The notes under the pieces were generated by a model, which was not told the DNA's origin, ran no database searches, and saw only the letters and a program-made list of their open reading frames with translations. Both the position numbers and the translations under genes were made by a program. From Caulobacter sp. (GTDB lineage: Bacteria; Pseudomonadota; Alphaproteobacteria; Caulobacterales; Caulobacteraceae), in the NCBI GenBank assembly GCA_019636175.1, contig JAHBYC010000017.1, forward strand, positions 1-53,391: a stretch of 53,391 nucleotides of DNA, in the 5' to 3' direction. Numbering within the stretch: position 1 is the stretch's first letter; each line of letters starts with the position of its first letter. Below, piece after piece: positions 319 to 50,010 of the stretch.

Positions 319-404
319 GCTAATTCGGTGACAGTCACTTTTTTCAGGTCCACGGACGCCGCAGCCACCTCGCTGTAGAAAAAAGTGACTGTCACCGAAT
401 TAGC
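319..404. repeat. REPIN 1 (two inverted REP arms) upstream of the RAYT gene
   Basis: Two 27-nt arms, 319-345 and 378-404, are perfect reverse complements separated by 32 nt. Each arm contains the core GGTGACAGTCACTTTTTT, itself centred on the small palindrome GTGACAGTCAC. The outer ends read GCTAATTC. The unit ends 33 bases before the RAYT start codon. The same arm recurs at 1113-1240, 47956-48040 and 49809-49892, which defines a dispersed repeat family rather than a terminator. Confidence 0.9.
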
Positions 405-437
405 TGGTTAGCTGGCGGGGGCTGACGGGGAGAGGCA

Positions 438-1097
438 ATGGCCAGGCTGGCGCGTGTGGTCATTCCGGGTCTGCCGCATCATGTGACGCAGCGCGGCAAC
501 CGCGCTCAGCGGGTGTTCCATGAGGACGGCGACTGGCGATACTATCTCAAGCTGGTTTCCGACGCGGCGAAGGCGTCGGGCACGGACATCTGGGCCTACT
601 GCCTGATGCCCAACCATGTTCATTTTGTCGCCGTTCCCTCGAAGGAGGAAGGACTGCGCCAGACCTTCGCCATGCCGCACAAGCGCTATACGGCGATGGT
701 CAACCGGCGGAACGGCTGGACAGGGCACCTGTGGCAGGGGCGGTTCAATTCGTCTGTCATGGACGAGGCGCATCTGATGGCGGCGGTCCGCTATGTATCA
801 CTCAATCCGGTCCGGGCCGGCCTCGTCGCCAGGGCGGAGGACTGGCCGTGGTCGAGCGCCCGGGCCCATCTGTCGGGCCGTGACGATGGGGTGGTGACGG
901 TCGCGCCGATGCTCAGCCGGTTCGCGGATTTTGCAGGCTATCTGTCGGCGGAGAACGATCCTCGCGCGGTCGAGGCGCTTCGGCGGTCCTATTCCACGGG
1001 GCGGCCGGTGGGGGCCGCTGACTGGGTCAGGGCGCTGGAAGGAGAAACGGGTCGAACCCTGGGCGCCGCCGCGCGGGGTCGGAAGCCGTTGGCGTAG
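438..1097 (+). CDS. REP-associated tyrosine transposase (RAYT, Y1_Tnp family)
   Basis: 219-residue single-strand DNA transposase-like protein. It starts at an ATG preceded by GGGGAGAGG. Visible family features are the HUH motif PNHVHF (His60 and His62), the catalytic tyrosine in the helix AVRYVSLNPVRAG (Tyr119, with Asn123 and Pro124 giving the YxxxNP signature), and the N-terminal LPHHVTQRGNR block. RAYTs are IS200/IS605-related enzymes, usually single-copy and domesticated, thought to spread REP sequences. Here the gene is flanked by REPINs on both sides (ends 33 bases upstream and 15 bases downstream), matching that role. All catalytic residues are intact, so it may be active. The C-terminal region beyond about residue 150 has no recognisable motif. 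Alternative: a short IS200-like element, but no IS200/IS605 ends or tnpB are present. Confidence 0.92.
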   Translation: MARLARVVIPGLPHHVTQRGNRAQRVFHEDGDWRYYLKLVSDAAKASGTDIWAYCLMPNHVHFVAVPSKEEGLRQTFAMPHKRYTAMVNRRNGWTGHLWQGRFNSSVMDEAHLMAAVRYVSLNPVRAGLVARAEDWPWSSARAHLSGRDDGVVTVAPMLSRFADFAGYLSAENDPRAVEALRRSYSTGRPVGAADWVRALEGETGRTLGAAARGRKPLA

Positions 1098-1112
1098 TCG
1101 CCGGCGGTGGGG

Positions 1113-1200
1113 GCTAATTCGGTGACAGTCACTTTTTTCTCCAACCCTGCTGTCGGCCGCCGGTCGCGGGGCTGAAAAAAGTGACTGTCACCGAATTAGC
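1113..1200. repeat. REPIN 2 downstream of the RAYT gene
   Basis: Arms 1113-1139 and 1174-1200 are perfect reverse complements and identical to the arms of the 319-404 unit, with a different 34-nt spacer. It begins 15 bases behind the RAYT stop codon, so gene and repeats form a nearly symmetrical cassette of about 0.9 kb. Confidence 0.9.
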
Positions 1201-1214
1201 TCGGCGGTGAGGCG

Positions 1215-1240
1215 GAAAAAGTGACTGTCACCGAATTAGC
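1215..1240 (-). repeat. Solitary REP arm
   Basis: A single arm with the same sequence as the right arm of REPIN 2 but with five instead of six A residues. It lies 14 bases beyond REPIN 2 in the same orientation as that right arm. It could be what remains of a third unit that lost its partner. It sits about 56 bases upstream of pdxY. Confidence 0.85.
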
Positions 1241-12768: not shown

Positions 12769-12776
12769 GATCAGCC

Positions 12777-12903
12777 GTCATCCCGGCCGTAGCCGCGACG
12801 CGGCGGAGCGCCGGGACCCAGGCGGGACGGGACTCCCTGTCGGCCAGCGTGGGGTGCAAGGAGTCTGGGTCCCGGATCGGCCCCGTGGGCCGTCCGGGAT
12901 GAC
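12777..12903. repeat. Intergenic inverted repeat (GTCATCCCGG / CCGGGATGAC family)
   Basis: Left arm 12777-12822 starts GTCATCCCGGCC and ends CCGGGACCCAG; right arm 12864-12903 starts CTGGGTCCCGG and ends CCGGGATGAC. It fills the gap between EcsC and leuB. Sister copies are at 44817-44968, 48550-48677 and 49903-50010. Confidence 0.75.
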
Positions 12904-12924
12904 GGGTTGGAGGAGGTCATGAGA

Positions 12925-44816: not shown

Positions 44817-44968
44817 CGTCATCCCGGCCGTAGCGCGACGCGCGGAGAGCCGGGACCCAGAGGGCCATTTCGCGACTTGAGCCCCCGGGTCCCGGATAGC
44901 CCGCAAGGGGCTTCCGGGATGACGGCGGGGCAGGTCCCGGATCGCCCGCAAGGGGCGTCCGGGACGAC
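44817..44968. repeat. Intergenic inverted repeat between the phytase and its receptor
   Basis: One left arm 44817-44862 (GTCATCCCGGCC... CCGGGACCCAG) faces two right arms, 44887-44924 and 44931-44968 (GGTCCCGGAT...CCGGGATGAC/GACGAC). The right side is thus duplicated. It lies inside a probable phytase-receptor transcript. Confidence 0.7.
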
Positions 44969-47955: not shown

Positions 47956-48040
47956 GTAATTCGGTGACAGTCACTTTTTTCGGGCCTGCCGTCGGCTGCC
48001 TCACCGGCGAGGTGGAAAAAAGTGACTGTCACCGAATTAC
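47956..48040. repeat. REPIN 3
   Basis: Arms 47956-47981 and 48015-48040 are 26-nt reverse complements with a 33-nt spacer and the core GGTGACAGTCACTTTTTT. The outer ends are GTAATTC, one base shorter than the GCTAATTC ends of the copies beside the RAYT gene. It occupies the centre of the 309-base gap between the TonB receptor start and the DUF1801 gene. Confidence 0.9.
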
Positions 48041-48538: not shown

Positions 48539-48549
48539 CTCCCCCCTCC

Positions 48550-48677
48550 GTCATCCCGGAAAGCGCGCAGCGCTTGTCCGGGACCCAGGGGGGCGAGGCG
48601 CGGTCCCTACGGCCGCGATCAAGACGCCGATCTGTTCCCTCTAGGTCCCGGCTCGCCCCGCGGGCGTCCGGGATGAC
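48550..48677. repeat. Intergenic inverted repeat upstream of DUF1801
   Basis: Left arm 48550-48588 (GTCATCCCGGAAAGCGCGCA, ending TCCGGGACCCA) and right arm 48641-48677 (CTAGGTCCCGGC... CCGGGATGAC). The centre contains no gene. The left arm is almost identical to that at 49903-49940. Confidence 0.75.
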
Positions 48678-48713
48678 GGAAGGGTGAGAAAAGGGGCGCA
48701 ATGCCTCGCGGTC

Positions 48714-49790: not shown

Positions 49791-49808
49791 GGGTCAGTCA
49801 AGCCGCCG

Positions 49809-49892
49809 GTAATTCGGTGACAGTCACTTTTTTCCACCTCGCCGACGTGGCCCCCGCAGCGGGTCCGAAAAAAGTGACTGTCACCGAATTAC
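49809..49892. repeat. REPIN 4
   Basis: Arms 49809-49834 and 49867-49892 are 26-nt reverse complements around a 32-nt spacer, with GTAATTC ends as in REPIN 3. It sits 18 bases upstream of the ArsR operator and is followed after 10 bases by a GTCATCCCGG-type arm at 49903. Confidence 0.9.
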
Positions 49893-49902
49893 CCCCACCT
49901 CC

Positions 49903-50010
49903 GTCATCCCGGAAAGCGCGCAGCGCTTGTCCGGGACCCAGGGGGCGCGAGACGCCGCCATTGCGGCCGCGATGAAGAGGCCGATCTGTCCCCTCCGGGT
50001 CCCGGCAGGC
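49903..50010. repeat. Inverted-repeat arm set next to REPIN 4
   Basis: Left arm 49903-49940 (GTCATCCCGGAAAGCGCGCA, ending TCCGGGACCCA) is nearly identical to 48550-48588. The right arm (from about 49997, GGGTCCCGGCAGGCC) is degraded and loses similarity before 50010. Located just behind the end of the S9 peptidase. Confidence 0.6.

Follow-up and report, generated by a model that had tools for sequence, protein, structure and literature searches.

A tyrosine transposase gene framed by hairpin repeats

The DNA analysed here (the window, 53,391 nucleotides of a Caulobacter sp. contig) carries near its start a gene for a TIRYT/RAYT-type Y1 HuH transposase (438-1097, plus strand), assigned from Pfam, a PDB match and the predicted fold. 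The open reading frame codes for 219 amino acids; upstream of it, the ORF within which the window starts presumably encodes an adenosylhomocysteinase, and the ORF that follows it encodes what we take to be a pyridoxal kinase. The product displays the HuH and Y---NP motifs of TIRYT enzymes, with catalytic residues H60/H62 and Y119, the latter within a YxxxNP signature (Y119-V-S-L-N123-P124). In a 33-row alignment, H60, H62 and N123 never vary and Y119 has a conservation of 90% or more, bearing out the description of an intact RAYT-type gene with these residues in an earlier note on this DNA.

Pfam returned Y1_Tnp (E 4.1e-08), and the NCBIfam model NF047646, REP_Tyr_transpos, gave 74.9 bits (E 5.7e-21), a score below its curated cut-off of 80 bits; in PHROGs the product matches one family, of unknown function. 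The sole PDB chain found by sequence at E ≤0.01 is 4er8, a RAYT bound to a REP hairpin (E. coli TnpA_REP), and the same chain ranked top among solved structures in a fold search with the AlphaFold model (pLDDT 92.3; E 2.8e-09), followed by the IS608 and ISDra2 transposases. The model predicts an intact catalytic fold. The C-terminal 82 residues are modelled with confident helices at 165-170, 175-187 and 194-204; among the Pfam matches listed, at E up to 10, none falls in this region (the helix-turn-helix domains of subclass 2.1 enzymes are Bac_DnaA_C, HTH_23 or HTH_28). A sigma-70 consensus scan of positions 1-1500 yielded no promoter-like site, and Rfam at gathering scores yielded no match in the window.

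Two-armed hairpin repeats flank the gene on both sides. The upstream one (319-404) has arms of 27 nt each at 319-345 and 378-404 with 32 nt between them, the downstream one (1113-1200) arms of 27 nt each at 1113-1139 and 1174-1200 with 34 nt between them; in both, the two arms are 100% complementary, as the earlier note had read them. It had also reported an extra arm near 1215-1240, and a single arm on the minus strand is indeed present at 1214-1241 (1214-1240 in our feature list), 27/28 identical to the reference arm. The palindrome GTGACAGTCAC and the run of six T, by which the arm had been described, are local variants, and the palindrome pairs only weakly within the arm. In TIRYT loci, or TIRtrons, a tyrosine transposase is flanked by inverted repeats unrelated to the GTAG REPs (Di Nocera et al. 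2013, PMC3733652), and repeats of this kind flank the gene here: the arm has no GTAG, and carries instead a TIRYT-like motif, GGTGACAG, one base off the GGGGWSAS found in some, not all, of the TIRs described in that article.

Dispersed dimers and their folding

The repeat is dispersed well beyond the transposase gene. Its core, GGTGACAGTCACTTTTTT, has nine matches in the window at ≤3 mismatches (0.01 expected), and two of the two-armed copies, or dimers, which the earlier note had not included, lie far from the gene, at 47956-48040 (core matches at 47963-48033) and at 49808-49893 (core matches at 49816-49885), the latter with GG/CC rather than GC/GC as outer pairs. The draft genome to which the window belongs (designated G000; 3,172,269 bases, 91 contigs, 86.88% complete) holds 26 core matches at ≤2 mismatches, and a reversed-pattern control holds none. 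These matches resolve into 12 dimers on six contigs, four of them within the window, plus two single arms. A lack of two-armed copies elsewhere in the genome would have refuted the earlier note, but 10 of the 12 dimers are located away from the transposase gene. The gene itself is the single close match at its similarity level in the draft genome. By a crude gene call, 18 of 19 checked elements lie outside genes, although two of the 18 overlap the edge of a called ORF; the 19th precedes an ATG for which G000 and a sister genome, G236, align.

Folded as DNA, each window dimer forms a hairpin of 26-27 bp with a free energy of -33.3 to -36.6 kcal/mol (z -9.7 to -12.4), equalled by no shuffled sequence. 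A lone arm, with its GTGACAGTCAC palindrome, pairs weakly (-1.7 kcal/mol; 13/200 shuffles as good); the strong fold is that of arm to arm, not one within a single arm. This bears on the idea that the locus is a canonical GTAG REP/REPIN system whose REP has degenerated. The dimer layout and the RAYT fold do resemble those of REPIN systems: as in REPIN/RAYT pairs, two inverted repeats with a variable linker are dispersed, mostly in intergenic positions, with a transposase gene nearby, and dispersed inverted doublets that form a variable-loop hairpin are what define a REPIN-like organisation. REPINs, unlike the dimers here, have arms with a GTAG-tagged short hairpin. With no GTAG at the foot of a short hairpin, a TIRYT-like motif in its place, and a lone arm that folds weakly, we regard the canonical system as very improbable. 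The dimers are also few, 12 in this draft genome against the roughly six hundred REPs given for E. coli K12 in PMC8266576.

Across 21 dimers from G000 and G236, 15 of 29 pairs never vary. The outer pairs do vary and mostly stay paired, one of them, for example, being C-G in 13 dimers, G-C in five, G-U in one and unpaired in two. Cells changed on both sides number 22, versus 11.7 in shuffles (0/500 reaching this value) and 0-9 in slid controls, whereas further pair types are not above shuffles (16 vs 14.3; 124/500). The same covariation pattern would arise if one arm were copied from its partner.

The window has a second family of repeats. The sequence CGTCATCCCGG occurs there seven times exactly, against 0.12 expected (12776-12904, 44817-44924, 48549-48678 and 49902-49912); six of the seven occurrences make up three inverted pairs, and the copy at 49902 comes immediately after a dispersed dimer. 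By motif, to which the family assignment is limited, these repeats resemble the CGTC REPs described for C. crescentus and others in PMC3733652, where C. crescentus is listed among the species with CGTC REPs and with genes for tyrosine transposases.

Comparison with a sister genome

G236, the single sister genome compared, carries the transposase gene in synteny on both sides; identity to the query protein is 93% there and 100% in G000. A single arm (C4:148304) occupies a place in G236 like that of the arm at 1214-1240. The comparison took in 10 of the 12 G000 dimers (C78:46040 and C78:60598 being the other two), and eight of the 12 have a dimer as their counterpart at the matching position in G236, although for one of them (C78c) only one flank aligns. 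The syntenic G236 stretches of the remaining two, at window 47963 and 49816, contain no core, and a G236 dimer at C20:328627 conversely lacks a counterpart at the matching G000 place. The flanking stretches of the two genomes have a blast identity of about 80-94%, two lower matches, probably paralogous, aside. Clean empty sites were sought at these three presence/absence differences (window 47963 and 49816; G236 C20:328627), but their junctions are diverged or laden with repeats, so that insertion and loss are indistinguishable and neither a target site nor an exact boundary can be read.

At the eight shared sites, 5 of 288 positions differ in the two 18-nt arm cores; in the loops, aligned in whichever of two orientations fits better, 73 of 287 columns do (Fisher 7e-19, a value to be read with the positions not being independent). 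This disparity indicates that the arms are either held by selection or homogenised, and it weighs differently on two alternative accounts of the dimers. One sees in them neutral, MITE-like fossils left behind by an ordinary IS200-type element. The loops, which are related but diverged (mean identity 0.62 with greedy orientation, 0.54 in shuffles), are as expected of such old copies. Neutral decay, however, would strike arms and loops alike, and the transposase gene, present once and syntenic in G236, differs between the genomes with a dN of only 0.040 for a dS of 0.732 (0.011 and 0.230 for the next gene); we thus consider fossils an unlikely explanation. According to the other account, the dimers now serve the host as mRNA 3'-end hairpins or as transcription or nucleoid sites, and selection maintains them, with the transposase as a passenger or a former supplier. 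Arm cores that are conserved while loops drift suit this account, as does the position of 18 of the 19 checked elements outside genes, with the crudeness of that call and the two ORF-edge overlaps in mind. We give it a small chance, for reasons that emerge from the distribution of the arms in other genomes.

Three further features of the shared loci deserve mention. The transposase gene (window 438-1091 against locus L109) has a threefold higher dS than the next gene, which may point to a separate history or to a replacement long ago. Both gene-flanking dimers of G236 have GCTATTTC and a loop beginning with CTCCA, whereas the upstream loop of G000 differs, a pattern which suggests that the two gene-flanking dimers exchanged sequence. 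At the shared site C89a (L167 3430-3500, L156 5090-5159), the loop appears inverted between the genomes: it differs at 11 of 37 positions when reverse-complemented and at 17 of 36 as it stands, which is no more than suggestive of an inversion.

Distribution in the family

A scan of 390 genomes of the family with AATTCGGTGACAGTCAC, which represents 17 of the 27 arm nucleotides, at ≤1 mismatch found the arm in multiple copies in only two genomes, G000 (27 matches) and G236 (19), both of which carry this transposase; 11 further genomes have one match each. A generic dimer of the CGGTGACA form (as distinct from CGGGGACA), CGGTGACA-N42-70-TGTCACCG, was detected in 38 of the 390 genomes, the reversed control giving one match in one genome (G383). 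Several of the single dimer matches look like chance. Among the places listed, the second halves of the arms differ: they read, for example, GTTTACGAATT in G237 and G252, GTTTACTTAATTC in G203 and GTTGCAATAACCC in G336.

Dimer and transposase tend to occur together. With a match at E ≤0.001 taken as presence and fragments counted, the transposase is found in 26 of the 38 dimer genomes and 53 of the 352 others (Fisher 9e-12), and in 12 of the 16 genomes with at least three dimer matches (2e-6); genomes and elements are related, and these P values thus overstate independence. Four genomes with 3-11 dimer matches, G203, G306, G377 and G388, have no Y1_Tnp at E ≤0.001 (the dimers of G377 and G388 being known from counts), and 53 of the 79 transposase-bearing genomes have no dimer of the CGGTGACA form; together these argue against a strict link between dimer and transposase. 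The earlier note had tied the repeats to the presence of the gene. This holds for the exact arm AATTCGGTGACAGTCAC, multi-copy solely in the two genomes with the gene, but holds only in part for the wider dimer form: 4 of the 16 genomes with at least three matches lack Y1_Tnp.

For the account in which the dimers serve the host, the four genomes with dimers and no Y1_Tnp are favourable. The restriction of the multi-copy exact arm to genomes with its own transposase tells against it, in that a pure host function does not require such company.

G203 is also an observation in its own right. This genome, 100% complete, has 11 dimer matches, with CGGTGACAGTTTACTTAATTC or near-identical arms in the places listed (L194-L198, five of the 11), and thus presents hairpin repeats that survive without a visible transposase.

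Arms and protein across phyla

A contig scan found 104 relatives of the transposase, of which 80 were kept; they are labelled Pseudomonadota, Thermodesulfobacteriota, Myxococcota, Acidobacteriota, Actinomycetota, Spirochaetota and other phyla, and many derive from metagenome bins. These 80, with 29 loci from the family genomes and two from the window's own genome, made up the 111 loci scanned for motifs, 97 of which matched on the plus strand and formed the flanking-sequence set. The tree and the arm test covered 95 loci, leaving aside 14 of the 111 without an ORF of 190-270 aa, the distant Y1 gene L028 and, where present, the duplicates L029 and L033.

Of the 95 loci, 65, the window's included, have matching G[GT]GACA arms (GG[GT]GACA) to either side of the gene, the layout that PMC3733652 names TIRYT/TIRtron. 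As a control, the upstream side of one locus was combined with the downstream side of another; 4.75 loci then matched on average and nine at most in 20 shuffles. The variable base is G in 50 of the 65 matched-arm loci and T in 15. Such arms in many phyla bear on the earlier claim of a separate alphaproteobacterial REP class with its own transposase: a RAYT-type transposase with its own dispersed two-armed repeats is indeed what the locus holds, but the separate class is not supported. In a quick tree of the 95 rows, the protein falls inside a 37-row clade (SH-aLRT 99) that is rich in alphaproteobacteria and contains 13 of the 15 rows labelled with a dimer on at least one side. This tally is soft, the labels having been set by eye: close > < pairs went unlabelled at L071, L083 and L137 and were labelled at L104.

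The distance between arms follows the distance between proteins (Mantel r 0.38; 0/5000 permutations), a finding that again counts against a purely host-serving role, for which arm sequence need not track the transposase. A scan for arm specificity, corrected for overall distance, placed columns 79 and 82 first of 174 (partial r 0.35 and 0.27, the next being 0.24 and 0.15). Independent contrasts for residue 79 amount to three pairs among those listed, and enrichment of the helix among the top ten columns is not significant (2/10, p 0.28). That residues 79 and 82, in one helix, best track the variable half of the arm is thus offered as a lead only.

A probable TIRtron with REPIN-like dimers

The locus looks like a TIRYT, or TIRtron, with REPIN-like dimers, and so like a member of a known, little-studied family instead of a new alphaproteobacterial class. 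As in the TIRtrons of PMC3733652, a transposase is flanked by non-GTAG inverted repeats, and dimers are dispersed; that article also describes, for some genomes, moderately abundant TIR families with many copies arranged as dimers or clusters. Unlike the TIRtrons described in its main text, the gene here has dimers both upstream and downstream. The words Caulobacter, Phenylobacterium and Brevundimonas are absent from that main text, and a literature search conducted largely outside subscription papers found no description of such a system in Caulobacteraceae.

In the classification of Quentin et al. (2018, PMC6006769), the enzyme probably belongs to TnpA_Y1 subclass 2.1; according to the text consulted, this subclass probably corresponds to TIRYT and includes RAYT group 1 of Bertels 2017. 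The Y---NP signature and a C-terminal extension beyond the core are shared with subclass 2.1. Neither automatic nor manual searches, the same text states, turned up REP-like sequences in the vicinity of subclass 2.1 genes, in contrast to the hairpin-forming dimers present here.

We favour, as the probable explanation, a TIRtron whose gene occurs once in the draft genome and whose cognate arms have doubled into dispersed REPIN-like dimers, with an enzyme that would process the folded dimer while the gene stays put. The enzyme would bind the dimer in its folded form, on single-stranded (lagging-strand) DNA, and recognise it by the GG[GT]GACA arm; the tracking of arm and protein supports such recognition. 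Tyr119 would then cut near the foot of the dimer, and on rare occasions the dimer would be pasted or copied into another intergenic site, the transposase gene itself not moving. Either hairpin-based processing or host selection on the hairpin could keep the arms alike while the loop drifts. Cutting and movement of the dimers are inferred here; the analogue is E. coli TnpA_REP, an enzyme that cuts single-stranded REP DNA and joins it (PMC8266576).

A wider proposition, which we consider less likely than not, is that the TIRYTs of alphaproteobacteria evolved REPIN-like dimers independently of the GTAG REPs, that the enzyme, or the host even once the enzyme is lost, actively maintains the arms, and that the helix around residues 79 and 82 may read the variable half of the arm. 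PMC3733652 and PMC6006769, as far as the texts consulted go, describe TIRYTs as flanked by inverted repeats, in the later article without REP-like sequences nearby, and leave their job open. The locus, combined with the family-wide scan, provides a compact model for matching transposase and hairpin repeat one to one, for comparing genomes with and without the enzyme, and for testing arm specificity biochemically.

In two relatives from genomes of the family (L116 1453-2154, minus strand; L117 1501-2181, plus strand), the downstream arm is absent in the motif scan and a His replaces the catalytic Tyr (RHLSLNP), and they are possibly catalytically dead. The draft genome itself also has the second, distant Y1 gene, L028 (C49:503-805), whose product is 39% identical to that of 438-1097 over residues 51-150 and which is surrounded by a 25-nt inverted repeat, AGGGAGCGCGGACCTCCAGGTCCGC.
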